Source: Ureibacillus thermophilus (GTDB lineage Bacteria > Bacillota > Bacilli > Bacillales_A > Planococcaceae). From it: DNA of 64,000 bases. Under the pieces are notes generated by a model. That model saw only the letters and a list, made by a program, of their open reading frames with translations, did not search any database and was not told where the DNA came from. The stretch covers positions 1,745,145 through 1,809,144 of the forward strand of contig NZ_CP036528.1 in assembly GCF_004331915.1 (NCBI RefSeq), read 5' to 3'. Position 1 is the stretch's first letter. Every line of letters starts with the position of its first letter. Below are positions 1-62,500 of the stretch, piece after piece. Made by a program: the position numbers and the translations under genes.

Positions 1-285
1 GGAGCAGTATCCGCACGAAATGAGGAGGTAAACGCACGAAACGGAGCAGTATCCGCACGAAATGAGGAGGTAAACGCACGAAACGGAGCAGTATCCGCAC
101 GAAATGAGGAGGTAAACGCACGAAACGGAGCAGTATCCGCACCAATTGGAGGAATAAACGCACAAAAGGTGGAAGTATCCGCACTAATTGGGGGAGTAAA
201 CGCACAAAAGGTGGAAGTATCCGCACTAATTGGAGGAGTAAACGCACAAAATGGAAATTCATCCGCACTAAATGAAAATCCACCC
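1..285 (+). repeat. 21-bp tandem repeat array 1 (right part)
   Basis: About thirteen head-to-tail 21-bp units, arranged as 42-bp dimers in which one half carries GTATCCGCAC and the other GTAAACGCAC. The left units end in CGAAA and contain GGAGCA or GAGGAG. The right units end in CAAAA or CTAAT and contain GGTGGAAG or GGGGGAG. The last units decay just before the terminator at 295. The array is cut by the window start. No gene is seen in positions 1-371 apart from the array and the terminator. Confidence 0.9.
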
Positions 286-294
286 CACCAAATA

Positions 295-346
295 AGAAAA
301 AAGACCGAATAGTGAAACTCATTGTTTTCTCCATTCGATCTTTTTT
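295..346. terminator. Bidirectional rho-independent terminator
   Basis: An A-rich run, then GACCGAAT, pairs with ATTCGATC followed by six T. It would end transcription of the MFS gene from the right and anything reading out of the repeat array from the left. Confidence 0.7.
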
Positions 347-371
347 AAAACTTTTAGACATCTCGTTCTTT

Positions 372-1763
372 TTAAGTGTTTGGCATTTTCTTCTTAGAAA
401 GGAAGAAGGATAGGATGAAGCCAATGAATGCAAATATAAATGCTACGAAGAAGGCCGTTTTAATTCCGTTTGAAATTTCATAGCCAGCTACTTGTTGAGC
501 ATTTCCAGCACTCATCACTGTTACAAGGAGCGCTGTGAAGATGGAGGCGCCGACTGTCCGGATCGTGTTGTGCATAGCCGTACCATGGGCAATCAATTCG
601 CGGTTCAATGAATTGATTCCAGCGGTCATCAACGGCATGGAAAGCAATGCAAAGCCGAGCATTTGGATTGTAAACATGATAGACACGGCAACAAATGGAG
701 TATTTTGGTCGATGAAGTTATACAAAACGCAGGCCAATACGATACAACCAAATCCGCTGATGGCTAATCCCTTTATTCCGAATCTGTCAAATAATTTTCC
801 TGAAACCGGCGACATGGCACCTGTGATGATGGCACCCGGCAAAAGCATAACCCCAGAAGTGAGGGCAGAACCTTGTTGAATCTTCTGTACGAAAATAGGC
901 AAGATGGTTTCAATGCCGATCAGCAACCCGAATACAACGATGGAAAGAATCGTCGTCAACGTAAATTCCTTGGATTGGAACACGGTGAAATTCAACATCG
1001 GCTGCTGCAGCTTAAATTGTCTTCTGATGAAGAATATTAATGAAAAACTACCGATGACGATGGAAAGAATCACGTTTGTACTTGCCCATCCATATGATCC
1101 TACCAAACTCGTTGCATAAAGGATGCCGCCCCAACCAAAGGAAGACAATATCACCGACAATACATCCAGTTTTCTTTCATGTTGTGTGGTCACATTTTTC
1201 ATTAAAAAGATGGAAAGAATGAACACAATCAGCGTAAATGGCAAGACGGTAAAGAATAAAAATCTCCACGAAAAGTGATCAATAATCCATCCTGCAAGAG
1301 TCGGTCCAATAGCTGGAGCAAAACCAACTACAAGGCCGCTCATTCCCATGGCAGCCCCGCGTTTTTCCACAGGATAGATGGAGAAAATAACTGTTTGCAT
1401 CAACGGCATTAACATTCCTGCACCAATCGCCTGAATAATGCGGGCAGCTATGAGTAGCCAGAAATTCGGGGTTATGGCTCCGATGAATGTACCGATGGCA
1501 AAGACGCCGAGGGCAAAAATTAATAATGCTTTACTGCTATATTTTTCAATGAGAAATGCAGTAATTGGAATCATCACTCCATTGGCCATCATAAACCCGG
1601 TCGTCACCCATTGGGCAAGTGATGGACTGATGGAGAATTCCTCCATAATTGACGGCAATGCCACAATAAGAAGCGTTTGGTTCAGCAAAGAAACAAAGGA
1701 TGCCGCAAGCAAAATGCTGACGATTACATTGCGGTTATATGAAACTTTATTTACCATATCCAA
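372..1763 (-). CDS. MFS drug:H+ antiporter, DHA2 (EmrB/QacA-like) family
   Basis: A 463-residue polytopic membrane protein whose length and hydrophobic pattern fit a 14-helix DHA2 exporter. It would use the proton gradient to expel lipophilic drugs or metabolites. The antiporter signature (motif C) appears as GFAPAIGPTLAGW near residue 150. The start is TTG at 1763: AAAGGAG lies seven bases upstream, whereas the next ATG (1757) is too far from it. The gene stands alone and diverges from the germination operon. The family is clear, but the substrate cannot be read from the sequence. Confidence 0.85.
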   Translation of the reverse strand: MDMVNKVSYNRNVIVSILLAASFVSLLNQTLLIVALPSIMEEFSISPSLAQWVTTGFMMANGVMIPITAFLIEKYSSKALLIFALGVFAIGTFIGAITPNFWLLIAARIIQAIGAGMLMPLMQTVIFSIYPVEKRGAAMGMSGLVVGFAPAIGPTLAGWIIDHFSWRFLFFTVLPFTLIVFILSIFLMKNVTTQHERKLDVLSVILSSFGWGGILYATSLVGSYGWASTNVILSIVIGSFSLIFFIRRQFKLQQPMLNFTVFQSKEFTLTTILSIVVFGLLIGIETILPIFVQKIQQGSALTSGVMLLPGAIITGAMSPVSGKLFDRFGIKGLAISGFGCIVLACVLYNFIDQNTPFVAVSIMFTIQMLGFALLSMPLMTAGINSLNRELIAHGTAMHNTIRTVGASIFTALLVTVMSAGNAQQVAGYEISNGIKTAFFVAFIFAFIGFILSFFLSKKKMPNT

Positions 1764-1851
1764 ATCAATTCTCCTTTGCTATAGAAAGGAAATAATAAAG
1801 AAAGCTTAAAATATTTCAGAAAAGAAATCAAGAAAAGAGAAATGAATCACA

Positions 1852-1881
1852 TGTATGGAATATCTTTCTTCGAACATAATA
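1852..1881 (+). promoter_or_regulatory. Sigma-G-like promoter of the ger operon
   Basis: TGTATG, a 17-base spacer, then CATAATA. This resembles the forespore sigma-G pattern (TGAATA-17/18-CATACTA). It sits 38 bases before the gerAA start, and germinant receptor operons are usually sigma-G controlled. Assigned by eye. Confidence 0.5.
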
Positions 1882-1919
1882 ACAGCAAAAACTATAAACA
1901 GATAGGCAGGTGATTTTGA

Positions 1920-3524
1920 ATGTCACCATTTTTTAAGAAGAGCAATCACAATACAGATAAAACAGATGTATTTCTGGAAAGCAAGATTGTCAATGAATAT
2001 AAAGAGAAACCACTCTCACCCCGACTTGAAGAGAATATCCAGATTTTGAAAAAAATTTTCGAAAAGGACATGGATTATTCCATTCGACGATTTGAACTTT
2101 TTCAAAAAACCCCATCAGCCATTGTGTATCTCAATTCATTGGTTGATAAAAAAGTCATCAATCAGGACATTCTCAAACAATTGCAAGAACATGTGATGAC
2201 AGAGGAACAACACGCCAATTTACCACAGTATATTATGGAAAATATACTTTATTATAACGACGTGGTAACGGTTCAAAATCTATCCCAAGTGATTGGTGCT
2301 ATTGTACAAGGGAAAGCCATTGTGATAATTGATGGTATCCAAGAAGCACTGGAACTCGATGTTTTAATAAAGGAAAAACGAAGCATCGAGGAACCGGAAA
2401 CGGAGCGGGTTGTACGGGGGCCAAGAGATGGATTTATTGAACAAATACAAACAAATATTGCATTGTTGCGGTATCGTCTTCCCATTCCGGAATTTCGTGT
2501 GGAGGAAACGGAAGTGGGCGTTCGTACGAAAACGAAAGTGGTTGTTTGTTATATAGAAGATATAGCCAACCCCACTTTAGTACAAGAAGTGAAGAAAAGA
2601 ATTGATGCCATTGAAATTGATGGCGTTTTGGATTCTGTCTATATCGAGCACTTTCTAGAAGATAATCCTATTTCTCCATTCCCTCAGCTGATTAACACAG
2701 AAAGGCCAAATCGGGTGATAGGGAATCTATTGGAAGGCCGTGTTGCCGTTTTAGTCGATGGAAGTCCATCAGCATTAATTGCTCCTGCAACGTTCAACGA
2801 ATTTTATCATACAGAGGAAGATTACAATCAACACTGGGTGTTTTCCTCTTTAGTCCGGATATTTCGGATTATGGCGCTTTCATTTTCATTAACCTTTTCT
2901 GCCATATATGTAACCGTCTTTTCGTACCATCCGGAGTTGATTCCGGCCAAATATGTCGTTGCGGCTTCCACCGGCGCCCTCACCATTCCATTTCCAATCG
3001 TGTTTGAAGTACTAGTGCTGGAGTTTTCGATGGAAGTGTTGCGGGAAGCGAGTGTGCGAATGCCGCAACAAGTCGGCGGCGCTTTATCGATTGTAGGAGT
3101 GCTTGTTGTTGGGCAAGCTGCCGTACAAGCAGGGTTTGTAAGTCCCATCACCGTTGTTATTATCGGGATGTCAACGATTGCTTCCTTTGCTGTCCCTGCA
3201 TATAATGCAGCCAATACGTTCCGCATGCTACGATTTCTTCTAATTATTTTAGCAGGTGTATTAGGGTTACTGGGAATTGCATTGGGACTCATCCTTGTAG
3301 CGAATCACATGCTCTCATTACGTTCTTTTGGCGTTCCATACATGTCACCTTATGCACCATTAGATATAAAGTCTTTAAAAGATTCCATTATTCGAGCTCC
3401 ATATAGAAAAATGATGCAACGTCCAGCGAAAATTCATCCGCAAGATAAAACGCGAATAGGAGATGTACCAAAAGACTATACAAATTACAACTTTCTCAAT
3501 AAAGAAGAAAGGGAAAAACTATGA
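1920..3524 (+). CDS. gerAA: Spore germinant receptor subunit A (GerA family)
   Basis: 534 residues. A long hydrophilic N-terminal region (about 1-310) is followed by several hydrophobic segments (about 312-480) and a short polar tail, the layout of GerAA/GerKA proteins. The A subunit sits in the inner spore membrane and with B and C forms the nutrient receptor that triggers germination. It is first in an A-B-C operon, the order of B. subtilis gerA; its stop overlaps the gerAB start (ATGA-type overlap). GGCAGGTG precedes the ATG. It has the length typical of the family and no defects. The germinant is unknown. Confidence 0.92.
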   Translation: MSPFFKKSNHNTDKTDVFLESKIVNEYKEKPLSPRLEENIQILKKIFEKDMDYSIRRFELFQKTPSAIVYLNSLVDKKVINQDILKQLQEHVMTEEQHANLPQYIMENILYYNDVVTVQNLSQVIGAIVQGKAIVIIDGIQEALELDVLIKEKRSIEEPETERVVRGPRDGFIEQIQTNIALLRYRLPIPEFRVEETEVGVRTKTKVVVCYIEDIANPTLVQEVKKRIDAIEIDGVLDSVYIEHFLEDNPISPFPQLINTERPNRVIGNLLEGRVAVLVDGSPSALIAPATFNEFYHTEEDYNQHWVFSSLVRIFRIMALSFSLTFSAIYVTVFSYHPELIPAKYVVAASTGALTIPFPIVFEVLVLEFSMEVLREASVRMPQQVGGALSIVGVLVVGQAAVQAGFVSPITVVIIGMSTIASFAVPAYNAANTFRMLRFLLIILAGVLGLLGIALGLILVANHMLSLRSFGVPYMSPYAPLDIKSLKDSIIRAPYRKMMQRPAKIHPQDKTRIGDVPKDYTNYNFLNKEEREKL

Positions 3525-4624
3525 AGCATTCGAAGCATACGGATTTAATTAGTTCAATTCAGTTTGCAGGTATTATTGCAAGTACAATTATCGGTGTTAC
3601 TTTATTGGTTTTGCCGAGAATTATTGTGACAGAAGTAGGAGAAGCAGCCATTATAGTCAGTATTACTGGTTTAATGATTTCATTTATCAGCCTTATGGCG
3701 TTAATTCTGTTAGGAAAAAAATACCCAAATCATACGATTATGGGATGCAATCGGATGTTATTGGGCAAATTTATTGGAACGTTTTTCAATTGTTTGATTG
3801 TCATCTTGGCGATTATAATCATGAGCTTTGAAGTGAGGGAATTTGCGGAAGTTCTGGCAAACGGTTTATTGCCGAATACACCGATTGAAATTTCCATCAT
3901 CTTAATGATTATCGTTTGTGCATTAGCTGGTTTTCACAATGTTTCTACCTTTGCCTATATTCACTTTTTTTATTTACCGTTTATATTGATTCCAATGATT
4001 TTATTTTTCCTTGCCTTTGAAGACATCAAAGTGTATCATTTTTTGCCTATTTTAGGCCATAATTTGTCGTTCAAAGAGTTTATGCATGGAGCTTTAAACA
4101 TGGCAAGTGCGATTACAAATTTTTATGTGATTGCCATGTTGTCTCCATATATAAAGGATTATAACAAAAGTTTGAAACATGGAATTTGGGGATTCTTTTT
4201 GGGAGGAGTAACCATCATTTATACCATTGTAGTATCTCTAGGTGTTTTTGGGGTAGTAGAATTACACAAAATCTATTGGCCTGTTTTATCCCTTAGCCGA
4301 ATCATCGAAATACCGGGAGAAGTGTTGTCGAGAGTGGATGCGATCGTTCTCATTAATTGGATTTTTGCGGTTTTTACAACATTGCTTTCTTATTATTTTG
4401 TCATTGTTCGGGGAACGGCAGAGATATTTCGTACAGACAAATATCACTTCATCGCAACTCTTATGGTTCCGGTTGTATTTATCGTAGCATTGGTTCCGAA
4501 TAATATTTACGAAATATATCGCTATGGCATTAAAGTCGCTGGTTTCGCGATGATTTTATATATAATACTTCCAATTTCTTTATTAATCATCGGCCGTTTT
4601 CGTAAAAAGGTGGGAATGCAATGA
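3521..4624 (+). CDS. gerAB: Spore germinant receptor subunit B (GerAB family, APC superfamily)
   Basis: 367 residues, almost entirely hydrophobic with about ten membrane segments, as in GerAB/GerKB proteins, which are related to amino-acid permeases and bind the germinant in the inner spore membrane. It overlaps gerAA by four bases at its start and gerAC by four bases at its end, so the three subunits are probably translationally coupled. No truncation is seen. Confidence 0.92.
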   Translation: MKHSKHTDLISSIQFAGIIASTIIGVTLLVLPRIIVTEVGEAAIIVSITGLMISFISLMALILLGKKYPNHTIMGCNRMLLGKFIGTFFNCLIVILAIIIMSFEVREFAEVLANGLLPNTPIEISIILMIIVCALAGFHNVSTFAYIHFFYLPFILIPMILFFLAFEDIKVYHFLPILGHNLSFKEFMHGALNMASAITNFYVIAMLSPYIKDYNKSLKHGIWGFFLGGVTIIYTIVVSLGVFGVVELHKIYWPVLSLSRIIEIPGEVLSRVDAIVLINWIFAVFTTLLSYYFVIVRGTAEIFRTDKYHFIATLMVPVVFIVALVPNNIYEIYRYGIKVAGFAMILYIILPISLLIIGRFRKKVGMQ

Positions 4625-5823
4625 AAAAGTTCCTTTTATCATTTGCATTGATGAATACCGTTTTGTTGTTATGCGGATGCTGGGACCGTTATGAAATAGA
4701 AGAACGGGCAAATATTTTGGCACTTTCCATTGATATTGCCGATGAAGGTGATGATATTGTGATGCATGAAGTAACCCATGCAAAAGGAGAATTTCCTGTA
4801 ACAGAAGATCAAGTCGTTTATAAAATGACTGCTCAACTGGCAGTGCCAGGGAAAGTCATGCTAGGCCCTTCAGGAGGAGAAACGAATTCTGAAGAGACCG
4901 ATTGGCTGTTGGTAGCTTACGGGTATTCGATGAAAGATGCGCTCTCCAATTTGCAACAAGAGCTGGCTGAAAGAATTTATTTGGGCCATATTCAAATCAT
5001 CGTCGTAAGCGATAAAATTGCCAAAAGTGGTCTAAAAGATATTATGGATTTTTTAAGAAGGGATTTTGAAGTGAGAAGAACGTCTTGGCTAATGGTTACA
5101 GAAGGAGATGCACAAGAGATATTAAAAGCCACTCCTCCAGTTCAAACTGTTCCTTCTTTGTATTTGGCAAGTACGTTACAAGATGCCGTTCGATATGGAA
5201 AATTGCCGAGCGAGTATCTAGGGAAAATATGGATCGATTTTTCAGATATCGGCGTGGACGCCATGGTTCCACTCGTCAAATCGAAGGGAGATCATATTTT
5301 AGTGGACGGGCTCGCTTATTTTAGAGGATACAAGATGGTAGGAAAGCTGTCCCCAACCGAAACAGGAGCGGTGTTGGCATTGCAAGGAGAAAATCCCGCA
5401 GGTTATACGAATGTCGTGAAACCCGAGAATCAAAAAGGAGTTTACCTTGTAAAGCCATTACGAAGAAAATCCAAAATTTCAATAGACCTGGTGAATGGAC
5501 AACCTAAAGTATCCATTCATATGAAAATAGAAGGTTTTATAGAAGAAGAACTTTATACAAAAGATTTAAATGAAAAAAAATTGGAGGAAATTGAAAAAAC
5601 TATTTCCAAATTTGGTGAAAAGTCGTTATTGGCGCTGATGAAAAAATTGCAGGAAGATGAGTCCGATCCCCTTGGCCTTGGGGCAATGGTAAGAGCATAT
5701 TATCCTAAATACTGGAATGAAAAAGTTAAAGACAATGAAGGATGGTATAAAGTGTATAAAGATTTAGACATTACCATCCATTTGGATTATAAAATCCGAA
5801 GAACTGGTTTGGAATGGGGTTAA
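4621..5823 (+). CDS. gerAC: Spore germinant receptor subunit C lipoprotein (GerAC family)
   Basis: 400 residues. A signal peptide ends in a lipobox (LLCGC, lipidated Cys near residue 20) followed by WDR, the characteristic start of mature GerAC proteins. GerAC lipoproteins lie on the outer face of the inner spore membrane and are needed for receptor function. It is the last gene of the operon and is followed by a strong terminator at 5839-5880. The C-terminal half shows the mixed polar pattern of the Ger(x)C domain. Confidence 0.92.
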   Translation: MKKFLLSFALMNTVLLLCGCWDRYEIEERANILALSIDIADEGDDIVMHEVTHAKGEFPVTEDQVVYKMTAQLAVPGKVMLGPSGGETNSEETDWLLVAYGYSMKDALSNLQQELAERIYLGHIQIIVVSDKIAKSGLKDIMDFLRRDFEVRRTSWLMVTEGDAQEILKATPPVQTVPSLYLASTLQDAVRYGKLPSEYLGKIWIDFSDIGVDAMVPLVKSKGDHILVDGLAYFRGYKMVGKLSPTETGAVLALQGENPAGYTNVVKPENQKGVYLVKPLRRKSKISIDLVNGQPKVSIHMKIEGFIEEELYTKDLNEKKLEEIEKTISKFGEKSLLALMKKLQEDESDPLGLGAMVRAYYPKYWNEKVKDNEGWYKVYKDLDITIHLDYKIRRTGLEWG

Positions 5824-5838
5824 TCAGTTTAATTGTAG

Positions 5839-5880
5839 CTGCCTATAAATGATATACTCATTGTTAGGCAGTTTTTTTTT
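5839..5880 (+). terminator. Terminator of the ger operon
   Basis: CTGCCTA pairs with TAGGCAG with further pairing AATGA/TCATT inside, followed by nine T. Confidence 0.9.
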
Positions 5881-6023
5881 GAAGAGGCCCTGTGGGATTA
5901 ATTGGAGGTAGCACGATAAACAGGAGCTGCCTATATTGTCGAGATACCTTTCAGATGAAAATCAGTTGAAAGAATTTTTCTTGGATGAAGGTGCTCTCGA
6001 TAACAAAAAAAGGAGGGAGCAAT

Positions 6024-6578: not shown

Positions 6579-6589
6579 GCGGTGTTTGT

Positions 6590-31744: not shown

Positions 31745-31780
31745 TTAAGTTTTTTATAGTTGAAAAGGAGACTGTTTTTT

Positions 31781-33187
31781 ATGGAAAAAAATGTTCGCAT
31801 TGAAAAAGATTTTTTAGGTGAAAAAGAAATCCCGATAGATGCTTATTACGGAGTGCAAACAATGCGCGCCACTGAAAACTTCCCAATTACAGGATATCGT
31901 ATTCATCCTGAATTAATTAAGTCGCTTGGGATTGTAAAAAAAGCAGCCGCACTAGCGAACATGGAAGTAGGTTTATTAGATAAAACAATAGGGGAATATA
32001 TTGTAAAAGCAGCTGATGAAGTCATCGAAGGTAAATGGGATGACCAGTTTATTGTGGACCCGATTCAAGGGGGAGCTGGTACTTCCATCAACATGAACGC
32101 TAATGAAGTCATCGCCAACCGTGCGTTGGAATTAATGGGAGCAGAAAAAGGGAACTATTCCCTTATCAGTCCAAACAGCCACGTGAATATGTCCCAATCT
32201 ACAAACGATGCTTTCCCAACGGCTACACATATTGCCGTGTTAAGTTTATTAAATCAATTAATTGACACGACCAAAACAATGCAACAAGTATTTTTGAATA
32301 AAGCTGATGAGTTTGCTGGAATCATTAAAATGGGCAGAACGCACTTGCAAGATGCTGTTCCGATTTTGCTAGGGCAAGAATTTGAAGCCTATGCACGCGT
32401 CATTGCCCGGGATGTTGAACGCATTTCCAATACAAAAAATAATTTATATGAAGTGAATATGGGGGCAACAGCCGTAGGAACAGGTTTAAATGCAGAGCCT
32501 GAATATATTAAAATCGTAACTGAACATTTAGTGAAATTGAGCGGCCATCCATTAAGAAGCGCAAAACATTTAGTCGATGCAACGCAAAATACGGATTGCT
32601 ATACAGAAGTATCTGCTGCATTGAAAATTTGCATGATTAATATGTCCAAAATCGCCAATGACTTGCGCTTAATGGCATCTGGTCCACGGGCAGGATTATC
32701 AGAAATTATCCTTCCAGCCCGCCAACCAGGTTCTTCTATCATGCCGGGTAAAGTAAATCCAGTAATGCCAGAAGTGGTGAACCAAGTGGCATTCCAAGTC
32801 ATCGGTAATGATTTAACAATTTCAGCCGCTTCCGAAGCAGGACAATTTGAGTTGAATGTAATGGAACCGGTATTATTCTTTAATTTAATCCAATCTATTT
32901 CCATCATGAACAATGTGTTTAAAACATTCACAGAAAACTGCTTAAAAGGTATTCAAGCTAATGAAGAACGGATGAAAGAATACGTTGAAAGAAGCATCGG
33001 CATCATTACAGCCATCAACCCGCATGTTGGATATGAAACAGCAGCAAAATTAGCACGCGAAGCATACCTCACTGGCGAATCCATCCGTGATCTTTGCATT
33101 AAATATGATGTATTAACGGAAGAACAATTAAATGAAATTTTAAATCCTTATGAAATGACACACCCTGGCATTGCAGGAAAACATTGA
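31781..33187 (+). CDS. aspA: Aspartate ammonia-lyase (aspartase)
   Basis: 468 residues from ATG 31781, with AAGGAG eleven bases upstream; an earlier in-frame start at 31760 runs over that site. The fumarase/aspartase superfamily signature GSSIMPGKVNP lies near residue 320, along with SPNSHVNMSQSTNDAFPT near 132 and GRTHLQDAVP near 187. It converts aspartate to fumarate and ammonia in the cytoplasm. Fumarase C shares this fold, but the sequence reads as aspartase (AnsB/AspA). A cre box upstream suggests glucose repression. A terminator follows, and then a group II intron. Confidence 0.92.
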   Translation: MEKNVRIEKDFLGEKEIPIDAYYGVQTMRATENFPITGYRIHPELIKSLGIVKKAAALANMEVGLLDKTIGEYIVKAADEVIEGKWDDQFIVDPIQGGAGTSINMNANEVIANRALELMGAEKGNYSLISPNSHVNMSQSTNDAFPTATHIAVLSLLNQLIDTTKTMQQVFLNKADEFAGIIKMGRTHLQDAVPILLGQEFEAYARVIARDVERISNTKNNLYEVNMGATAVGTGLNAEPEYIKIVTEHLVKLSGHPLRSAKHLVDATQNTDCYTEVSAALKICMINMSKIANDLRLMASGPRAGLSEIILPARQPGSSIMPGKVNPVMPEVVNQVAFQVIGNDLTISAASEAGQFELNVMEPVLFFNLIQSISIMNNVFKTFTENCLKGIQANEERMKEYVERSIGIITAINPHVGYETAAKLAREAYLTGESIRDLCIKYDVLTEEQLNEILNPYEMTHPGIAGKH

Positions 33188-33230: not shown

Positions 33231-33870
33231 GTGCGCCCGGCATGTACATGAACGATAGGGTGTAAGTCCCGAACGCGGAAGACAGAAGTAGAGGTTAGCT
33301 CAACGCAAGGGTGTCCGTGGTGACGCGGAATCTGAAGGAAGAAAGCGGCAAACTTCCGGTCCGAGGAACACGAACCTCATATAAGGCTAGGTATGATTGA
33401 GTGAGTTTGCAAAACAAAACAAAGCTCTTTCTGTCGAAGGTCATATCGAGTAAATGAGGCGGATAGATGGTGTGAAAGTGCATGTACTTACCCGGGGAGG
33501 TCTGGCGGATAGGTGAAGTACGCTTCATAACCTACTTAGTGATAAGTAGCTGAACCGTCAGAAGTCAGCAGAGGTCATCGTATTAGTTGGTTTAGAACTA
33601 CTAAGAAGGACCGAACAATGAAGAGAGAAAAGCCCTTGGCATTCAGTGAGTCATGATGAACACAGAAAACGCAGTACCTCACTTGAGGGAGGAGGCGGTG
33701 AATCCCGTGGGGGACCTCTTGGAGGGTGGAGTGACCACTGGCATAAAGAGAACAGCTATTCACGGAAGTTATAAAAACTTGCGTCAATGATCTTAATTGA
33801 ACCGCCGTATACGGAACCGTACGTACGGTGGTGTGAGAGGACGGGAGTTCATCGCTCCCTCCTACTCGAT
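33231..33870 (+). mobile_element. Group IIC (bacterial class C) intron lacking its reverse transcriptase
   Basis: It begins GTGCGCCCGGCATG and continues with AGTCCCGAAC, GTTAGCTCAACGCAAGGGTG, GAGGAACACGAAC and CATATAAGGCTAGGTAT, closely following my memory of domain I of the Oceanobacillus iheyensis IIC intron. Domain V is at about 33797-33834 with the CGC triad typical of class C, and the 3' end is near 33870 (CTCGAT). It sits directly behind a terminator T run, the preferred IIC target. Total length is about 640 bases; a full element with its maturase is about 1.9 kb. Only a 45-codon ORF (33653-33790) remains in the domain IV position, with no reverse-transcriptase motifs. Confidence 0.88.
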
Positions 33871-33900: not shown

Positions 33901-34935
33901 GAATATGCGAACCAATGGGAGGAGCAAACGCACGAATCGTGGCAGTATCCGCACGAAATGAGGAGGTAAACGCACGAAATGAGGAGGCAACCGCGCGAAA
34001 TGGAGCAGTATCCGCACGAAATGAGGAGGCAACCGCCCGAAACGAGGCAGTATCCGCACAAAAGGAGAAGGTAAACGCACGAAATGGAGTAGTAAACGCA
34101 CGAAATGGAGCAGTATCCGCACGAAATGAGGAGGCAAACGCGCGAAATGAGGCAGTATCCGCACGAAATGAGGAGGCAACCGCCCGAAACGAGGCAGTAT
34201 CCGCACGAAATGAGGAGGCAACCGCCCGAAACGAGGCAGTATCCGCCCGAAATGAGGAGGCAAACGCGCGAAATGGAGCAGTATCCGCACGAAATGAGGA
34301 GGTAAACGCACGAAACGAGGCAGTATCCGCACGAAATATGGAAGTATCCGCACGAATGGAGAAGGCAACCGCACGAAACAATGCAGTATCCGCACCAAAT
34401 GAGGAGGTAAACGCACGAAATGAGGCAGTATCCGCACGAAATGAGGAGGCAAACGCGCGAAATGGAGCAGTATCCGCACGAATGGAGAAGGCAACCGCAC
34501 GAAACGAGGCAGTATCCGCCCGAAATGAGGAGGCAAACGCACGAAATATGGAAGTAAACGCACGAATTGGAGTAGTAAACGCACGAAACGAGGCAGTATC
34601 CGCACAAAAGGAGAAGGTAAACGCACGAAACGAGGCAGTATCCGCACGAAATATGGAAGTATCCGCCCGAAATGAGGAGGTAAACGCACGAAACGAGGCA
34701 GTATCCGCACAAAATATGGAAGTATCCGCACGAATGGAGAAGGCAACCGCACGAAAGAGAGGAGCAACCGCCCGAAACGAGGCAGTATCCGCACAAAAGG
34801 AGAAGGTAAACGCCCGAAACGTGGCAGTATCCGCCCGAAATGAGGAGGTAAACGCACGAAACGAGGCAGTATCCGCCCGAAATGAGGAGGTAAACGCACG
34901 AAACAATGCAGTATACGCACGAAAGGAGCCAACAA
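33901..34935 (+). repeat. 21-bp tandem repeat array 2 (long)
   Basis: About 49 units of 21 bp over 1.03 kb. Units alternate irregularly between a GTATCCGCAC form and a GTAAACGCAC (or GCAACCGC) form, followed by GAAATGAGGAG, GAAACGAGGCA and variants. The period stays exactly 21 throughout, so several reading frames on both strands stay open (for example 33879-35057 plus and 33575-35017 minus). I treat these as repeat artefacts. It begins about 30 bases after the intron end and fades by 34940. Confidence 0.92.
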
Positions 34936-35031
34936 CCACACCAAATAAACCAACTGAAGCAGCAACCAACACCTTAAAAAATAAACAGGGAACCAGATTG
35001 ATTCCCCATGCACACATATCTATATTTCTTT

Positions 35032-35442
35032 TTAAGGAGCAGCTATTTCCGTTTTAGATAAAAGTTCCTTTAAAAACTGATCCCGCAGTTCAGGGGATTG
35101 CTGCTCTCCATCAAGAAGCATAGCACCTACCGTAAAATCCGATAAATCCTTCTCCACAATAAATTGCAAGTTCACATTTGCTTTCTTCTCTCCATTTACC
35201 GGGCAAGCACCTTTAAACTCTACTACATTCTGGCGATTATTGGTTCTAAAATAGACCCATTCTTCCTCGTCACATTGCCCATTCAAAGCATTTTCCAAAT
35301 TCACTGATCCATTTTCCAAAGTCGCGCTTTTTATATAAGATATATATTCTTTCCCTTCATCAGGTTTAGTCATATACCACAATATAAATATGATGAGAAG
35401 TGGAACAATCCATAAAATCGTTCTTTTAGATACATTCTGCAT
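35032..35442 (-). CDS. Hypothetical membrane-anchored protein
   Basis: 136 residues. A single N-terminal helix (about 8-23, ILWIVPLLIIFILWY) is followed by a polar extracellular-type domain with two cysteines (in NGQCDEE and KGACPVNG) that could form a disulfide. There is no lipobox. I do not recognise the family. It lies between the repeat array and topB and faces away from topB. Confidence 0.6.
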   Translation of the reverse strand: MQNVSKRTILWIVPLLIIFILWYMTKPDEGKEYISYIKSATLENGSVNLENALNGQCDEEEWVYFRTNNRQNVVEFKGACPVNGEKKANVNLQFIVEKDLSDFTVGAMLLDGEQQSPELRDQFLKELLSKTEIAAP

Positions 35443-54982: not shown

Positions 54983-54997
54983 AAAGGGAAATTGGGA

Positions 54998-55914: not shown

Positions 55915-56010
55915 CGTTTTATTTTATAGACGAACTAGTTCATTACCATATAAAAAAAGGAAATGTTGGCCAAACTAGAAGGGTAAGGAAATTGAATGAA
56001 GGTGGCTGGC

Positions 56011-57432
56011 ATGAAGAAAAGATATATTTTGGCGTTTTTAGCATTATTCATTTTTTTCTATATTCATCCAGTACAAGGAAAATCGTTGGATGAAACAGTG
56101 AAAACAAATTTAGGGACTTCGAATATAAGCGTTTCGATTCGGGATATGGAAAGCGGAAAAATAGTATATGAAAAAAATGGAGATGTGGGAATGAAGCCAG
56201 CATCTACATTGAAATTGCTGACCGCATCTAGTGCATTACATACATTAGGGGAAGATTTCCGTTTCCAGACAGATGTGTACCTTGATGGCCAAATCGAAAA
56301 CGGAGAATTAATTGGGAATCTTTATTTGAAAGGGCAAGGTGACCCGACGTTTCAAAAGAAGCATTTCTTGCAAATTGCGGATTTTTTTAGATTGTTGGGC
56401 ATCCATTCCATTCGTGGCAATTTATATGGCGATGATTTTTATTTTGATGGTGAGCAACTCTCTCCAGGCATTGCAAAAGAGGATGAGAGCTATTATTATG
56501 CTGCAAGAATCAGCGCCCTCACCATGTCGCCGGATGACGATTACGATGCCGGGACAATTATTGTTCATGTCAAACCGACAACAATAGGTGAAAAACCAAC
56601 GATTGAATTTGAACCAAATGATAGCGGCATGATTTTTGTGAATGAAGCAAAGACCGTATCTTCAAACGAACGAAACACAATCGAAATCATCCGGAAATAT
56701 CGTTCTAACAAGATTGTCATTTCTGGAAATATTCCGATGGGAGAACCTTATAAAGATTGGGTGACGTTGTATAATCCAACGGTGAATACCCTTATAGCCT
56801 TCAAGAAAACATTGGAGGAAGAAGGTTTTGTTTTTTATAACACATCCATCGAAAGAAAACCTGTGACCGAAAATGCAGTGCTGGTTTATTCCAAACCATC
56901 CCAGCCTTTAGAAGACCTCGTCCATCCATTTTTGAAATTGAGCAACAACAGCATTGCGGATATTTTAGTGAAAACAATGGGACAAAAAGTATATGGAGAG
57001 GGCAATTTTGAAAGCGGGTTGAAGGTGATTCGAAATTATGGAGAGCAGCTTGGCTTAAATATGTCAGATTGGCAGTTTGAAGACGGTTCTGGTATATCCC
57101 ATCAAAATCGAACAACTGCCAATGAGTTGACGAATTTATTAGTAAAGGTTCGAAGCGAGTCGTTTTTCCCTATCTTTTTTGAAAGTTTGCCTGTAGGGGG
57201 AGAGAAAGACCGCACAATCGGCGGATCGCTCCGGGAAAGATTTTTGGAAGACCATTTGAAAGAACGAATTTTTGCAAAAACTGGCCATATTACAGGAGTG
57301 TATACATTAGCCGGATATGTGAAGGCAAATAGCGGGAAAACGTACGCTTTTGCAGTCATGACTCAAAATCAGACGAGAAATAAAATCCATGAGATAGATA
57401 AAGTAGTCGAAACGATAATCGAGCAGTTTTAA
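56011..57432 (+). CDS. dacC: D-Ala-D-Ala carboxypeptidase/endopeptidase (S13, PBP4a/DacC type)
   Basis: 473 residues from ATG 56011, after GGTGGCTGGC. A signal peptide runs to about residue 23 (VQG/KS). Penicillin-binding motifs are S65-T-L-K68 (PASTLKLL), SNN in LKLSNNSIADIL near 308 and KTG in FAKTGHITG near 420. The long insert between SxxK and SxN is typical of class C low-mass PBPs. It trims or cleaves murein peptides outside the membrane. Monocistronic with its own terminator. Confidence 0.9.
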   Translation: MKKRYILAFLALFIFFYIHPVQGKSLDETVKTNLGTSNISVSIRDMESGKIVYEKNGDVGMKPASTLKLLTASSALHTLGEDFRFQTDVYLDGQIENGELIGNLYLKGQGDPTFQKKHFLQIADFFRLLGIHSIRGNLYGDDFYFDGEQLSPGIAKEDESYYYAARISALTMSPDDDYDAGTIIVHVKPTTIGEKPTIEFEPNDSGMIFVNEAKTVSSNERNTIEIIRKYRSNKIVISGNIPMGEPYKDWVTLYNPTVNTLIAFKKTLEEEGFVFYNTSIERKPVTENAVLVYSKPSQPLEDLVHPFLKLSNNSIADILVKTMGQKVYGEGNFESGLKVIRNYGEQLGLNMSDWQFEDGSGISHQNRTTANELTNLLVKVRSESFFPIFFESLPVGGEKDRTIGGSLRERFLEDHLKERIFAKTGHITGVYTLAGYVKANSGKTYAFAVMTQNQTRNKIHEIDKVVETIIEQF

Positions 57433-57486
57433 CCCAGCGTTTGGACAGAGGGATTATAGATTTTTGCAAATCATTCCATTCATAAA

Positions 57487-57530
57487 AAAAGAGCGATGGG
57501 TTCGAAAAATTTCCATTCGCTCTTCTTTTC
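57487..57530. terminator. Bidirectional terminator between dacC and yqfT
   Basis: AAAAAAAGAGCGA and TGG pair with CCA and TCGCTCTT, followed by a T-rich stretch. Confidence 0.8.
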
Positions 57531-57535
57531 ATGCA

Positions 57536-57784
57536 TTATCTCCATTCATCGAGCATTTTTTTATATTTTTTATATTTCTTTGAACCTAAAATTTTTTCCG
57601 CTTCCTTCAACACCCGTTCAGGGATTCCCGTTACAAGCCAAGTGATATTAGCCTTTTGGGCAAGGGACCGAAGCTTTTGGATTTCTTCAATTGTTAAATC
57701 CATCCCATATTGTTTAGCCATTTTTCGAATTTCTATATCGGATTTCGATAATAAAGATTCCCAAAATTCAATAATTTGATTCAT
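57536..57784 (-). CDS. yqfT: DUF2624 family protein (YqfT)
   Basis: 82 residues from ATG 57784, with AAAGGATG eight bases upstream; the longer reading to 57835 is rejected. Helical and charged, with MAKQYGMDLTIEEIQKLRSLA in the middle and a Lys/Tyr-rich tail. It matches the DUF2624 proteins beside nfo in B. subtilis. The function is unknown. Confidence 0.8.
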   Translation of the reverse strand: MNQIIEFWESLLSKSDIEIRKMAKQYGMDLTIEEIQKLRSLAQKANITWLVTGIPERVLKEAEKILGSKKYKKYKKMLDEWR

Positions 57785-57818
57785 TTCGTCATCCTTTCTT
57801 TTTATCAAGCAAGAAAAC

Positions 57819-57875
57819 TTTACAAAGAAATGCAAATCCCTTATACTTACAAAATGTAAATCGTAATGATTTTGA
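57819..57875 (+). promoter_or_regulatory. zurA promoter and Zur box
   Basis: TTTACA (57819-57824), 17-base spacer, TATACT (57842-57847). TCGTAATGATTTTGA (57861-57875), just past the start site, matches the B. subtilis Zur operator (TCGTAATNATTACGA) perfectly in the left half and partly in the right. Autoregulation by zinc-loaded Zur is expected. Confidence 0.7.
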
Positions 57876-57894
57876 ATTAGAAAGAAGAGAAAAG

Positions 57895-58635
57895 ATGAAA
57901 AAACCTTTTGTCGAGTTAGAAAATATTTCTTTTAAATATGGTTCGAATCTCGTTTTAAATAACGTTTCTTTAAAAGTAGAAGAAGGGGATTTTTTAGCTC
58001 TGATTGGACCCAATGGTTCAGGAAAATCGACTTTATTAAAAATCATTTTAGGTTTGCTTAAAGCAAAAGGAGAAATCAAGCTTTTTGACGAGCCGATTTC
58101 TTCATTTCAACATTGGGAATGGGTTGGGTATGTTTCCCAAAAGTCTAATGCCTTCAACACCGCTTTTCCCGCAACGGTAAAAGAAGTGGTGCAAAGCGGG
58201 CTGACGAAAAAAGTTGGTTTATTTAAACGAATGCCAAAAGATGCGAAAAAACGGGTGTATGACGCTTTAGCCGCCGTGGGAATGGAACAATTTCTTCACC
58301 GAAATATCGGTGAACTTTCTGGCGGTCAGCAGCAGCGGGTGTTTATCGCCCGAGCATTGATTGCAGAGCCGAAATTGCTCGTTTTAGATGAACCAACAGT
58401 AGGCGTGGATATCAAGAATGTTCAATCATTTTATGATATGTTGGAGGAATTAAATAAGAAACATCATTTAACCATCATTTTAGTAACCCATGACATTGAA
58501 ACGCCTTCCCATCAGATTAGCCATGTGGCGTTTTTAAATCAACGCATTTTGTTTTATGGGGAAATGGAGAAATATAATCAACTTCCTAAAGAACAAATTT
58601 ACGAATGGTACGGCCATTCCGTACGTGCAGTGTAA
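57895..58635 (+). CDS. zurA: Zinc ABC transporter ATPase
   Basis: 246 residues. Walker A GPNGSGKST (near 40), signature LSGGQQQR (near 141), Walker B LLVLDEPTVGVD, switch His in VTHDIE. It powers zinc import with ZurM and a separate binding protein that is not in this window. Order ATPase-permease-regulator matches zurA-zurM-zur of Listeria and Bacillus (AdcC/ZnuC family). A Zur box lies upstream. Confidence 0.9.
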   Translation: MKKPFVELENISFKYGSNLVLNNVSLKVEEGDFLALIGPNGSGKSTLLKIILGLLKAKGEIKLFDEPISSFQHWEWVGYVSQKSNAFNTAFPATVKEVVQSGLTKKVGLFKRMPKDAKKRVYDALAAVGMEQFLHRNIGELSGGQQQRVFIARALIAEPKLLVLDEPTVGVDIKNVQSFYDMLEELNKKHHLTIILVTHDIETPSHQISHVAFLNQRILFYGEMEKYNQLPKEQIYEWYGHSVRAV

Positions 58636-58646
58636 GGAGAGCGGTT

Positions 58647-59492
58647 ATGTTAGATGCAATTGTACATTATGAATTCTTACAAAATGCCTTTCTTTCAGGA
58701 ATGATCATTGGTTTTTTTGCGCCGCTCCTCGGTGTTTTTATTGTCGTTCGTCGAATGTCTTTAATTGCTGATGCGCTCTCTCACGTTACTTTAGCTGGGA
58801 TTACGGGGGGGCTTCTTCTAAATCAGCAGTTTGTGGCCTTCAGTCTCTTCAATCCAATTTATTTCGGGATCGTTGCCAGCGTGCTTGGTTCCGTTCTAAT
58901 CGAGAGGTTAAGAGCTTTATATAAACATTACGAGGAATTGGCGATTCCGATTATTATGTCGTGCGGCATCGGGTTAAGCGCCATTTTTATTTCCCTTGCC
59001 AATGGGTTTACGACAGATGTGATGGGGTATCTCTTTGGCACGGTTTCTGCTGTTTCAAGGCAGGATTTATGGATTATAATCGCCATTGCATTGATTGTCT
59101 TATTTTTTTTGGTACTCTTTTTTAAAGAAATGTTCGTTTTATCCTTTGATGAAGAATATGCCAAAGCATCCGGGCTTCCGGCGAAATTAATACATTTTTT
59201 ATTTATGGTGGTCGTTGCATTAACTATCGCAGCCAGCATGCGAATTGTCGGTATTTTGCTCGTTTCTTCAATGATAACATTGCCGGTTGCCAGCGCCATG
59301 CGATTGGCGAAAGGGTTTAAAGGAACGATGATCTATGCAGTTATATTTGGCGAATTAGCGGTTATTGTAGGTTTAATTTTTGCTTTCTACTTAGATATAG
59401 CGCCAGGCGGAACAATTGTCGTAACCTCTATCCTTATTTTAATGATCGTTATTTTGTTCAAAAAAGCGATTCGGAAGGAGGCGCAGCAATGA
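58647..59492 (+). CDS. zurM: Zinc ABC transporter permease
   Basis: 281 residues from ATG 58647, with AAGGAGAG upstream; the longer reading from 58605 overlaps zurA and is rejected. ABC-3 family permease with about eight helices. Conserved segments are VVRRMSLIADALSHVTLAG near residue 37 and a second repeat-like stretch MRIVGILLVSSMITLPVA. It overlaps zur by four bases. Confidence 0.92.
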   Translation: MLDAIVHYEFLQNAFLSGMIIGFFAPLLGVFIVVRRMSLIADALSHVTLAGITGGLLLNQQFVAFSLFNPIYFGIVASVLGSVLIERLRALYKHYEELAIPIIMSCGIGLSAIFISLANGFTTDVMGYLFGTVSAVSRQDLWIIIAIALIVLFFLVLFFKEMFVLSFDEEYAKASGLPAKLIHFLFMVVVALTIAASMRIVGILLVSSMITLPVASAMRLAKGFKGTMIYAVIFGELAVIVGLIFAFYLDIAPGGTIVVTSILILMIVILFKKAIRKEAQQ

Positions 59493-59902
59493 ATCGGGAA
59501 AAAGCTTGGGAAATATTAAAAGCCCATGGGTATAAAAAAACGGATAAACGGGAGCTCATTTTATCGATGTTTGAAGCGACCGATAAATATTTGACTGCCC
59601 GGGATTTATTGGAAGTGTTGAAAAAGGACTACCCTGGCATGAGCTATGATACGATTTATCGGAATCTAGCAACCTTTGTAGAGTTGGGTATTTTAGAAGA
59701 AACTGAATTGAATGGAGAAAAAAATTTCCGCATGCATTGTGAAGTGGATCACCATCATCACCATTTTATTTGTATGAAATGCGGAATGGTGAAAGAAGTT
59801 TCGTTATGTCCTTTGGAAATGATGGAATCCTTGCTACCAGGTTATTCCATTGAATCTCATAAATTTGAAATCTATGGAAAATGTCCGGCATGTAATGTAT
59901 AA
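59489..59902 (+). CDS. zur: Zinc uptake regulator (Fur family)
   Basis: 137 residues. An N-terminal winged helix (GYKKTDKRELILSMFEATDKYLTA, DTIYRNLATFVELGILEE) is followed by the metal-binding HHHHHFICMKCG region and a closing CPACN; the two C-x-x-C pairs hold the structural zinc. Zn-Zur represses zinc import genes. Its position after zurA-zurM distinguishes it from Fur and PerR. The motif at 57861 is its likely target. Confidence 0.92.
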   Translation: MNREKAWEILKAHGYKKTDKRELILSMFEATDKYLTARDLLEVLKKDYPGMSYDTIYRNLATFVELGILEETELNGEKNFRMHCEVDHHHHHFICMKCGMVKEVSLCPLEMMESLLPGYSIESHKFEIYGKCPACNV

Positions 59903-59993
59903 TTTTTCTTATGATGCAAACAAAGGGGCAGAAGAAATACCATTTATAAGCAAATCTGTTCCTGGAAAATAAAGAAATAAAGAGGGGTAAGAA

Positions 59994-60932
59994 ATGAAGC
60001 TGAAGAGAATCTATTTTTTACTTGCACTTATACTTGCCTTGGCATTAGCAGGCTGCGGCAAGGATGATGAAGCGGCGCCAAAAGAAACAGATGCCAAAAA
60101 ATCCGGCGATTCCTATACGGTGGTGGATGACCGCGGGGTAGAAATTACATTTGATAAAGTGCCTGAAACCGTCATTTCGTTGCAGCCAAGCAATACGGAA
60201 ATTTTGTTTGAATTAGGCGTGGGAGACAAAGTTATTGGTGTTACGGAATATGACGTATGGCCGGAAGAAGTGCAAAACATTGAAAAAGTATCAGACACAA
60301 TCAATGTGAACTTGGAAAGGGTTATTGAATTGAATCCGGATGTGGTATTTGCCTACACAATGGGCGGAGAGGAACAAGTGGAGCAGTTGGAAAGCGCGGG
60401 ATTGAAAGTGTTTGTCATCCAATCCGCCAGCTCCATCGAGGATGTGTACGGCGACATCGGACAAATTGCCCAAGTGATGGGCGTTGAAAACAAAGGTAAA
60501 GAATTGGTTGAAAAAATCAAAGGTCAATTTGCTGAACTGAAAGAAAAAACAGATAAAATAGAGCAGAAGAAAAAAGTTTATTTTGAAATCGCTCCTGCAC
60601 CGGATATTTGGTCCATTGGTTCAGGCACATTCCAGCAAGAGTTAATTGAAGCAGCGGGGATTGAAAATATTTATAGAGATCAAAATGGTTGGTTTTCAAT
60701 ATCTGAGGAAGACATTATCAACCGCAATCCAGATGCAATTATTACAACGGTGAATTATGGCAAAGATCCAACAGTAGAAATTAAATCTCGCCAAGGTTGG
60801 GAATCTGTTACGGCTATTCAAAATGGGGCCGTTTATGAACTGGATGCGAATATTTTGGACAGACCTGGTCCACGCATTGCAGAAGCAGCCGAATTAATGG
60901 CCAAAACAATTTATCCGGAAATATTTGAATAA
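59994..60932 (+). CDS. Cobalamin/iron-complex ABC transporter binding lipoprotein (BtuF/YvrC-like)
   Basis: 312 residues. Signal peptide with lipobox LAGC (Cys near 20), Lys/Glu/Asp linker, then a helical-backbone class III binding fold: VVDDRGVEITFDKVPETVISLQPS opening and ELNPDVVFAY. The sequence looks closer to BtuF-type cobalamin binders (YvrC) than to siderophore binders, and the cob genes at 6-8 kb would use imported corrinoids. No permease or ATPase genes are adjacent, so it must use a transporter encoded elsewhere. GAGGGGTAAG precedes the ATG. Confidence 0.8.
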   Translation: MKLKRIYFLLALILALALAGCGKDDEAAPKETDAKKSGDSYTVVDDRGVEITFDKVPETVISLQPSNTEILFELGVGDKVIGVTEYDVWPEEVQNIEKVSDTINVNLERVIELNPDVVFAYTMGGEEQVEQLESAGLKVFVIQSASSIEDVYGDIGQIAQVMGVENKGKELVEKIKGQFAELKEKTDKIEQKKKVYFEIAPAPDIWSIGSGTFQQELIEAAGIENIYRDQNGWFSISEEDIINRNPDAIITTVNYGKDPTVEIKSRQGWESVTAIQNGAVYELDANILDRPGPRIAEAAELMAKTIYPEIFE

Positions 60933-60944
60933 TAAAACTAGAAG

Positions 60945-60985
60945 GGTGTCGTCTCAAAAGTACTTTTGAAACGACACCTTTTTTA
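60945..60985 (+). terminator. Terminator of the BtuF-like gene
   Basis: GGTGTCGT and TCAAAA pair with TTTTGA and ACGACACC, then six T. A repeat array starts right after it. Confidence 0.92.
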
Positions 60986-60989
60986 TTTT

Positions 60990-61280
60990 TGAAAGTATCT
61001 GTACTAAATGGAGAAGTAAACGCGCAAAAGGTGGAAGTATCCGCACCAAATGGGGGAGTAAACGCACAAAAGGTGGAAGTATCCGCACTAATTGGGGGAG
61101 TAAACGCACAAAAGGTGGAAGTATCCGCACCAATTGGAGGAGTAAACGCACAAAAGGTGGAAGTATCCGCACTAATTGGGGGAGTAAACGCACGAAACGG
61201 AGCAGTATCCGCACGAAATGAGGAGGTAAACGCACGAAACGGAGCAGTATCCGCACGAAATGAGGAGGTAAACGCACGAA
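60990..61280 (+). repeat. 21-bp tandem repeat array 3
   Basis: About 14 units. It starts with degenerate units just after the terminator, continues with the GGTGGAAG/GGGGGAG dimer type, and ends with the GGAGCA/GAGGAG dimer type, the reverse order of types seen in array 1. At 61280/61281 it changes abruptly into the coding sequence of a transposon ATPase that has lost its 5' half. Confidence 0.92.
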
Positions 61281-61770
61281 ATTTTATCAAATTCAGCAAG
61301 GAATCGAACGATTGTACACCGAACGAAGAATCACTCCTGTCTTGATTTTGGATGAGATGCATCTGGCTAAAGATGCCTTTCTGCAAGATCTTGCGATTTT
61401 GTTTAATTTTCAAATGGATTCGACGAATCCATTTGTCTTGATTTTAGCTGGCCTTCCGCATTTACAAACGCGGCTTCGGCTCAACCAGCATCGGCCGTTG
61501 AATCAACGTATCATCATGCGATATCAAATGGGGCCATTGACGAAAGAAGAAGTTGGTCAATATATAGAACAGCGAATGAAAATGGCGGGAGCGAAGATTC
61601 CGATTTTTACTCCAGCAGCGCTAGAGGCCATCGCTTTACAATCTCAAGGATGGCCAAGAGTGATCAATATCCTAGCCACGACTTGCCTCTTGTATGGATA
61701 CCAAATGAAAAAAGAACAGATCGATGAAGAAATCGTTCGAATGGCGGCAGAGGAACATCATCTTTACTAA
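61281..61770 (+). pseudogene. ExeA/TniB-like transposon ATPase, 5'-truncated
   Basis: An open frame of about 162 codons starts inside the array edge and reads IERLYTERRITPVLILDEMH (Walker B with Asp-Glu), LAGLPHLQTRLRLNQHRPLNQR (sensor and arginine-finger region) and WPRVINILATTCLLYG (C-terminal helices), as in the AAA+ ATPases of ExeA type carried by transposons. The N-terminal half with Walker A is missing: the sequence upstream is repeat array. No transposase gene is adjacent. It cannot hydrolyse ATP and is a remnant. Confidence 0.75.
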
Positions 61771-61776
61771 GCGATC

Positions 61777-61808
61777 GGAGCTCTTTGTACGGAGGGCTCC
61801 ATTTTTTT
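61777..61808 (+). terminator. Terminator-like hairpin after the ATPase remnant
   Basis: GGAGC pairs with GCTCC across a 14-base loop, followed by seven T. Confidence 0.55.
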
Positions 61809-61904
61809 CGAAGAGGGGCGGAAAAATCATCGAAAAACGACCGGAAAAATGTGCAAAGAACCTGGGGAAAATCGCAAAATCTAAAATAATCCGCAAAAAA
61901 ATTG

Positions 61905-61962
61905 CACATTATTTCAGAAAACGAACCAAAATAATTTGAAAAAGTCAGCCTGAAATAATGTG
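61905..61962. repeat. Inverted 13-mers, probable transposon end
   Basis: CACATTATTTCAG (61905-61917) and CTGAAATAATGTG (61950-61962) are perfect inverted copies 32 bases apart, with related AAAATAAT motifs at 61883 and 61929. Clustered copies of a short motif behind an ATPase gene are what transposase-binding ends of Tn7/Tn5053-like elements look like. Confidence 0.5.
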
Positions 61963-62054
61963 AAAATTTACAGTATTTCAAATAGTCCATTATTACACAG
62001 AACCCTTGGTAACTCCTATTGGAGAAACCAAGGGCTGAAAAGTCTTGAAGCTCG

Positions 62055-62156
62055 TTATGAAAACTTGTGTCAATCATCTTAATTGAACCGCCGTATACGG
62101 AACCGTATGTACGGTGGTGTGAGAGGACGGGAGTTAATCGCTCCCTCCTACTCGAT
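62055..62156 (+). mobile_element. Group IIC intron fragment (domains V-VI, 3' end)
   Basis: Nearly identical to the 3' end of the intron at 33231-33870, from AAAACTTG through domain V (ACCGCCGTATACGG, then GTACGGTGGTG) to CTCCCTCCTACTCGAT. Domains I-III and any reverse transcriptase are absent. Both copies are followed by TTGGAAG and then by a 21-bp repeat array. Confidence 0.85.
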
Positions 62157-62204
62157 TTGGAAGAATAAAACATTGAGTGGGGATGAATAACTATTTAGTG
62201 CGGA

Positions 62205-62500
62205 TAGGCTATTAATTAGTTTATATAGAAGAATGTTTGGTTCGGGTATCTCCTTAATTGGTGCGAATGGAATCTCATTTAGTGTGGATGCCCCTTCTAT
62301 TGGTGCGAATGGACACACATTTAGTTCGGATACTCCTTTAATTAGTGTGGATGGAATCTCAATTAGTTCGGATACCCCTTCAATTGATGCGGATGGAACC
62401 TCAATTAGTTCGGATACCCCTTCAATTAGTGCGGATGGAACCTCATTTAGTTCGGATACTTCTTCAATGGGTGCAGATGGACCTCTATTAGTTCGACTCC
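62205..62500 (-). repeat. 21-bp tandem repeat array 4, inverted and diverged
   Basis: On the minus strand the units read GTATCCGAACTAA and CCATCCGCACTAA in alternation, clearly the same family as the other arrays but more diverged and in the opposite orientation. The plus-strand ORF across it (62233-62556) is a repeat artefact. The 61771-62673 gap holds only this array, the transposon end, the intron fragment and terminators. Confidence 0.85.

Follow-up and report, generated by a model that had tools for sequence, protein, structure and literature searches.

The 64-kb window analysed here (64,000 nucleotides, bases 1745145-1809144 of the 3.02-Mb Ureibacillus thermophilus assembly) carries four arrays of 21-bp tandem repeats, and these belong to a satellite-like DNA family that is distributed across the Planococcaceae (Caryophanaceae in NCBI's present list). 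The explanation that best accounts for the family, to which we would give an even chance, is that its units share a core recognised by a sequence-specific protein. Units in the window were located with a 21-bp weight matrix trained on the same genome (G000). Array 1 (1..285, 13 units at 7-279), array 2 (33901..34952, 49 units at 33924-34952) and array 3 (60990..61288, 14 units at 60995-61288) lie on the + strand, with every step exactly 21 bp, and array 4 (62187..62500, - strand) consists of 11 diverged units at 62187-62459, in which nine of ten steps are 21 bp and one is 63 bp. Only one further match, a single unit on the - strand, was found elsewhere in the window, and 20 mononucleotide-shuffled versions of the window gave a mean of 1.65 matches and a maximum of 5; the four arrays are real and far beyond chance. 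Their total length is ~1.9 kb, as the original prediction had estimated from the sequence. That prediction also had all four arrays sharing two exact cores, which holds for arrays 1-3: GTAAACGCAC occurs 22 times in the window against 0.02 expected and GTATCCGCAC 29 times against 0.05. Array 4 contains neither core (example units are GTATCCGAAC and CCATCCGCAC), and its mean matrix score of 13.6 is about half that of arrays 1-3 (25.3-28.7), making it a diverged family member. The units are contiguous, head to tail, and a search for identical repeats split by unique spacers found none, in agreement with the earlier view that this is a dispersed repeat family and not CRISPR.

The arrays extend well beyond the window. 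In 15 stretches fetched from G000, one of them masked, the matrix identified 24 arrays and 590 units on both strands, with 4 to 64 units per array; this inventory is incomplete, so that 24 is a lower bound, and the inventories of other genomes are likewise partial. The step is exactly 21 bp in 542 of 562 cases across the 23 G000 arrays with at least five units, and in 542 of 556 cases across 15 arrays of the sister species G021. Beyond the fetched stretches, further + strand arrays or single pairs lie near 97.3, 268.7, 583.5, 1086.0-1086.6 and 1352.8 kb; these places are among the + strand matches listed, up to ~1.745 Mb, of 461 matches, and an earlier genome search gave 208 matches, from part of which places were also listed. 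The possibility raised at the outset that the arrays might be peculiar to this region is therefore contradicted by their presence along the chromosome and in related genera. The best-conserved unit positions include CGC.C.AA, and positions 4-5 tend to alternate between a TC type and an AA type. Alternation of two unit types had been predicted; the fetched G000 arrays display a tendency and not a rule, with same-type neighbours at a frequency of 0.22 observed against 0.43 expected. Orientation relative to replication, which the original prediction had proposed to map, shows no bias, since 13 of 24 arrays are co-directional (taking dnaA at ~497 kb and assuming the terminus to be opposite). The array near 583.5 kb and a distant G000 array at L049:3808-4079 carry the same distinctive units, GAATTGGGATTGTATCC and GAATTATGGGGGC, which suggests copying between loci.

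How far does the family reach among relatives? A three-unit profile (R1), with 20 candidates scored per genome, matches 33 of 261 family genomes and 7 of 19 genera under strict filters. A class-wide survey of 398 genomes (39 from the same family, 359 other Bacilli) for the pattern TATCCGC-N14-TATCCGC returned at least one match in 15/39 own-family genomes versus 40/359 others, and at least three matches in 12/39 versus 2/359; one of those two outside genomes, G610, holds a single identical sequence dispersed five times. Tandem arrays were confirmed by TRF in fetched loci of genera g1, g3, g8, g13, g39 and g40. Unit sequences vary between taxa (for example TATCCGCTACTTT, TATCCGCGGCTA, TATCCGCTCTAT and AGCCGCTCTAAA) whereas the 21-bp period and a core of similar sequence are kept. 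A profile scan of a wider contig set gave ten stretches, three of them from Ureibacillus xyleni and Lysinibacillus (Ureibacillus) composti; the other seven, from unrelated groups, are taken as chance. In some G021 loci (L107:1290-2885, L108:1938-3698, L104:4108-6044 and L098:3891-5159) a second 21-bp unit family, TATCCGAGCAAG, adjoins the CGCAC/CGCTC family.

Comparison of single loci between species reveals rapid turnover. Of the 25 genomes that represent the genus, 24 yielded the tdk-prfA locus; by eye, arrays are present in ten and plain spacer in 14, with the arrays of G000, G021, G015 and G022 running one way and those of G023, G003, G017, G007, G011 and G013 the opposite way. Some are as short as two units (G017, G007). 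Within 620 bases behind tyrS, arrays occur in 2 of 24 genomes. The length variation that had been anticipated is large when species are compared at one locus, where 4 units in G000 correspond to 71 in G021 and ~5 in G015. From these differences in presence and length, it follows that arrays are gained or lost and that they expand and contract. Six array loci are common to G000 and G021, two genomes that share 95% identity in the tdk protein and 97% in the tyrS protein: four are matched by both flanking genes (tdk-prfA, ssb-SNF2, L042/L107 and flagellin-UDP-glucose dehydrogenase) and two by one flank only (tyrS and L041:8545/L095), and the G000 array behind the UDP-glucose dehydrogenase gene (L043:14970) is without counterpart in L105. 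Among 298 distinct 21-mers in G000 and 257 in G021, none is identical between the species. The six G000 arrays have a mean best-dimer identity of 0.73-0.83 to other G000 arrays versus 0.60-0.72 to their G021 orthologues. Taken from the G021 side, the picture is less clear (its arrays reach 0.66-0.77 to G000 orthologues and 0.68-0.71 to other G021 arrays), and the G021 tdk-prfA array is closer to its G000 orthologue than to other G021 arrays. One unit is present in 11 G000 arrays; no 42-mer is found in two G021 arrays, several of which have a higher-order repeat of their own. These data show that arrays are homogenised within their own genome, that is, by concerted evolution.

A related question is whether arrays 1 and 3, which use the same sub-types in opposite order, were exchanged or rearranged, as the original prediction proposed. 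Array 3 is flanked on its left by a periplasmic binding protein gene (59994-60932), and array 1 is adjoined by the 3' end of an MFS gene (372-1763, - strand). A check of these neighbours in 18 of 20 returned loci, G000 included, found the two genes adjacent and convergent in two relatives, G015 and G022, with no array between them; in the other 15 relatives, the MFS gene was unseen within the up to 1.5 kb examined. Array 3 breaks off after GTAAACGCACGAAA, and GGAGCA at the start of array 1 supplies the bases that come next in that unit except for one C, such that the two breaks differ by at most one base in unit phase. Because the flanking genes are adjacent in G015 and G022 and the break points share unit phase, arrays 1 (right) and 3 (left) are most simply read as the halves of a single array, which supports the original proposal in a more specific form; a split of this kind would produce the opposite sub-type order. 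Both a real rearrangement and an assembly error are possible origins: a run of 100 N, an assembly gap directly outside the window, cuts the left end of array 1 and is the reason that this array touches the window edge, and the right end of array 3 meets a truncated ATPase gene. The latter (61312..61770, + strand) retains a C-terminal part matching positions 82-130 of the 130-position AAA_22 profile; its N-terminal part is missing at the junction, and the ATPase is probably of mobile-element type. A second, cleaner split is seen where G000 has, in place of a single G021 array between ssb and SNF2, two arrays separated by 119 kb; each half-array stops at a terminus of an insertion element, of one type in both cases (TGTAAATT.TCAC.TTATTTC). 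Ends of elements with these termini also touch or lie near arrays at window positions 61873-61972, L041:4938-5035, L043:3840-3939 and L052:9192-9289, and arrays may be favoured sites for this element.

The rationale for proposing a recognised core is based on the distribution of mutations within units. The core has the form A..CGC(A/T)C.AA and gathers fewer new changes among recent copies. In 12 arrays (ten from G021 and one each from G092 and G093), changes were scored from the higher-order consensus, and a change was called new when no other unit of that consensus has its base at the corresponding position. New mutations are rarer at positions 6, 7, 8, 10, 12 and 13 (28/2105) than elsewhere (141/4146), giving an odds ratio of 0.38 and a Fisher P of 6e-7 that serves as a guide only, since the script that ran the test also selected these six positions, from the G000 matrix, and the copies are related. 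For the whole 11-bp core, the counts are 76/3650 inside versus 93/2601 outside (P 5e-4), with depletion in 8 of 12 arrays. A first version of the test had given 130/4444 in the core versus 355/4273 in the rest, lower in the core in 14 of 14 arrays (in L098 barely); it was confounded by conversion between units, and for this reason the corrected test, although weaker, is relied on. A rare-variant count gave no usable signal on constraint. Position-specific constraint of the sort that characterises a tandem array of protein-binding sites is thus present in the core, and the rarity of new mutations at its conserved positions suggests recognition by a protein or enzyme, either through selection on a binding site or through the specificity of an enzyme that spreads the units. 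In addition, the AA/TT signal of G000 is strongest at 10.5 bp among ten harmonics.

We hypothesize that a sequence-specific protein would recognise the core and that each 21-bp step, equal to two helical turns, would bring successive sites onto one face of the helix. This factor could be a host architectural or chromosome-organising protein, in which case the core would be kept by selection, or it could be an enzyme that copies and spreads units and would keep the core through its own specificity. Array length would shift by slippage or unequal recombination, and copies would reach new intergenic sites by recombination. A narrower version, in which family-wide helically phased arrays are bound by a conserved Planococcaceae protein on a TATCCGC-type core at dozens of gene-end loci, organising or insulating the chromosome, with satellite-type concerted evolution of the remaining unit positions, is possible, and we hold it with considerably less confidence.

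Several observations weigh against core recognition. The candidate binder or enzyme is still hypothetical. The choice of positions described above affects the strength of the test, and adding positions 1 and 3, which are also conserved in G000, changes the counts to 44/2738 versus 125/3513. Four arrays (L094, L095, L096 and L112) lack depletion of new mutations in the 11-bp core. The 10.5-bp AA/TT signal in G021 is not above the 21-bp one, and periods of 41 bp (mixed 20- and 21-bp units) in G017 and G024 indicate that exact phasing is not absolute. Several of the 15 family genomes with paired cores have isolated pairs only, and TRF found no array around L178, L179 and L180. Finally, no single array looks essential, because 14 of 24 species are without an array at tdk-prfA and 22 of 24 are without one behind tyrS.

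The strongest competitor, which we regard as a serious if somewhat less probable account, is that the arrays are neutral or selfish tandem repeats without a recognition factor. They would arise by chance duplication, slippage and recombinational homogenisation and be tolerated at gene 3' ends, and the core would simply reflect common ancestry. The absence of any 21-mer shared by G000 and G021, the filling of one locus in some species and not others, the decayed units seen by eye at array edges, the heterogeneous gene neighbours and the 4 of 12 arrays without core depletion would all be expected of such repeats. Against this reading, core positions gather fewer new mutations overall, and different genera keep the 21-bp period and a similar core although the remainder of the unit has changed.

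Do the arrays work instead at the RNA level, by regulating read-through, backing up terminators or forming structured transcripts? Several start no more than ~60 bp from a hairpin that, with its T-run, resembles a terminator (judged by eye, with a separate check for array 3, where the hairpin at 60945-60978 lies between the binding-protein gene and the array start), and by eye a short array in G003 and G017 lies between promoter-like sequence and the prfA start. However, folding of the first 147 nt of each array is not stronger than that of mononucleotide-shuffled controls, whichever strand is taken (mean z of 0.86 and -0.47 for the two strands in G000, and -0.45 and -0.48 in G021), and array 2 contains no inverted repeats of at least 10 bp within 60 bp. 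Moreover, the opposite orientations at tdk-prfA in different species favour action as DNA, and a role in RNA is accordingly unlikely. Less likely again is that the arrays are clusters of DnaA boxes titrating the replication initiator. This idea draws on the resemblance of TATCCGCAC to TTATCCACA, which we take to be the DnaA box, on the exact TTATCCACA within G022 tdk-prfA units, and on the G021 arrays, whose 12.2 kb contain seven exact boxes and 3.36 near-boxes per kb versus 1.11 per kb in the flanks. In contrast, 12.5 kb of G000 arrays contain no exact box, near-boxes there are depleted to 0.08 per kb, and the multiple TTATNCACA boxes that would mark a DnaA cluster were not found in them; the fetched arrays are also not clustered at dnaA, though another array lies ~87 kb from it.

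That the arrays encode proteins with a seven-residue repeat is the least credible reading: although 21 is a multiple of 3, an open frame runs end to end in 11/24 arrays in the sense direction and in 16/24 on the other strand, and one collagen-like frame enters an array, frame-changing steps occur in 12/23 G000 and 6/15 G021 arrays, all sense frames contain stops in 13/24 arrays, other species have 41-bp periods, and open antisense frames are expected of a T-poor unit (14% T in G000). The collagen-like frame (GPTGPTGPQG repeats) lies at L051:3861-4841 (~2,993.4-2,994.3 kb) and continues antisense into the array with a Cys-rich heptad tail (SCGY/SCVY); the array may have replaced the 3' end of this gene.

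The genomic neighbourhoods of the arrays are diverse. The 30 flanking proteins searched against Pfam include the products of tdk, prfA, tyrS and ssb, an SNF2 helicase, flagellin-type and UDP-glucose dehydrogenase-type proteins, glycosyl transferase 4, a LytR-type protein, MFS, fumarase and SLH proteins, and no gene is common to the neighbours examined. At least one neighbouring open reading frame (ORF) of at least 90 aa points in at 22 of 24 arrays, a count from a crude ORF caller with its chance level uncomputed; by the same caller, nine arrays lie between convergent, 13 between co-directional and two between divergent ORFs. In the window, array 2 is preceded by a fumarase-type gene (31760-33187) and, just left of the array, by group II intron matches (to the D1-D4 models and to that of the 3' domain; 33314..33870, + strand), and is followed by a convergent ORF with no Pfam match (35032-35442); a group II intron 3' domain (62086..62156, + strand) lies just left of array 4. 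An association with group II introns as a rule was rejected, since the 12 other stretches contain one more, ~800 bp off. A mobile carrier element was likewise rejected: G000 flanks share insertion-sequence, intron and other repeat stretches only pairwise, with no sequence common to the loci. One such stretch of ~82-100 bp (in L044, CGATTACAGAGGAGGTGTTTTG...) is common to L044:3778-3959 and L041:7386-7485, twice beside an array and once elsewhere. Other tandem repeats have 53-bp steps at L043:8239-8718 in G000 and 52-bp steps at L065:866-1484 in G003.

No named family had been recognised for these repeats at the outset and none was found here either; CRISPR, STAR, REP/BIME, RNA structure, DnaA boxes and coding were each checked and fit poorly, and a partial resemblance to Chi, which we take to be AGCGG, was noticed in some genera. 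A search of titles and abstract beginnings in the open-access literature, with subscription papers mostly outside its scope, found no publication on the 21-bp repeat. The STAR elements of staphylococci, the closest published kind that we could consult, are interspersed intergenic direct repeats at 32-39 loci per S. aureus genome, built on a 14-bp motif, T(G/A/T)TGTTG(G/T)GGCCC(C/A), whose copies are set apart by 40 bp or more of recurring sequence (PMC3532100). Most loci hold a single copy and the maximum is 7; the elements expand and contract, differ in number and loci between species, and are of unknown function and spreading mechanism (PMC3532100). As far as that account goes, both families are interspersed intergenic direct repeats in Bacilli with tens of loci per genome and varying length, and they differ in that the present units are contiguous at 21-bp steps, without the spacing of at least 40 bp between STAR motifs, number 4 to 64 per array, form higher-order repeats and occupy some loci common to species. 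The STAR motif itself, allowing up to two mismatches, has one match in the window, with two mismatches and outside the arrays, against 3.55 expected by chance. We therefore file the 21-bp arrays as a new variant among interspersed intergenic repeats such as STAR.

Other known systems resemble the family in part. The BIME/REP elements of enterobacteria also lie at gene 3' ends, consist of palindromic units and have been proposed to bind DNA gyrase or nucleoid proteins; the location is similar, and a palindromic unit is lacking here, judged from array 2 (the only array tested for inverted repeats) and from folding like that of shuffled sequence. Plasmid iterons and the parC/tubC centromere repeats are head-to-tail, non-palindromic sites spaced by about one or two helical turns and bound by a protein. 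These are single loci beside the gene for their binder, whereas the present arrays occupy many chromosomal loci with no shared gene among the neighbours examined. The description of the family is firm, and its mechanism would follow the scheme proposed above. Eukaryotic satellite DNA offers a parallel in organisation, with alternating monomers, locus-specific higher-order repeats, concerted evolution and a short conserved box, all of which have counterparts here, although these arrays are bacterial and short and their binder is only hypothetical. Breaks in the assemblies of these genomes, and the breakpoints of rearrangements in them, may likewise stem from the arrays. It is from eukaryotes that long satellite-type arrays showing higher-order repeats and concerted evolution are best known, and a bacterial family with such arrays at partly shared loci makes expansion, homogenisation and selection on a binding box testable in small genomes.

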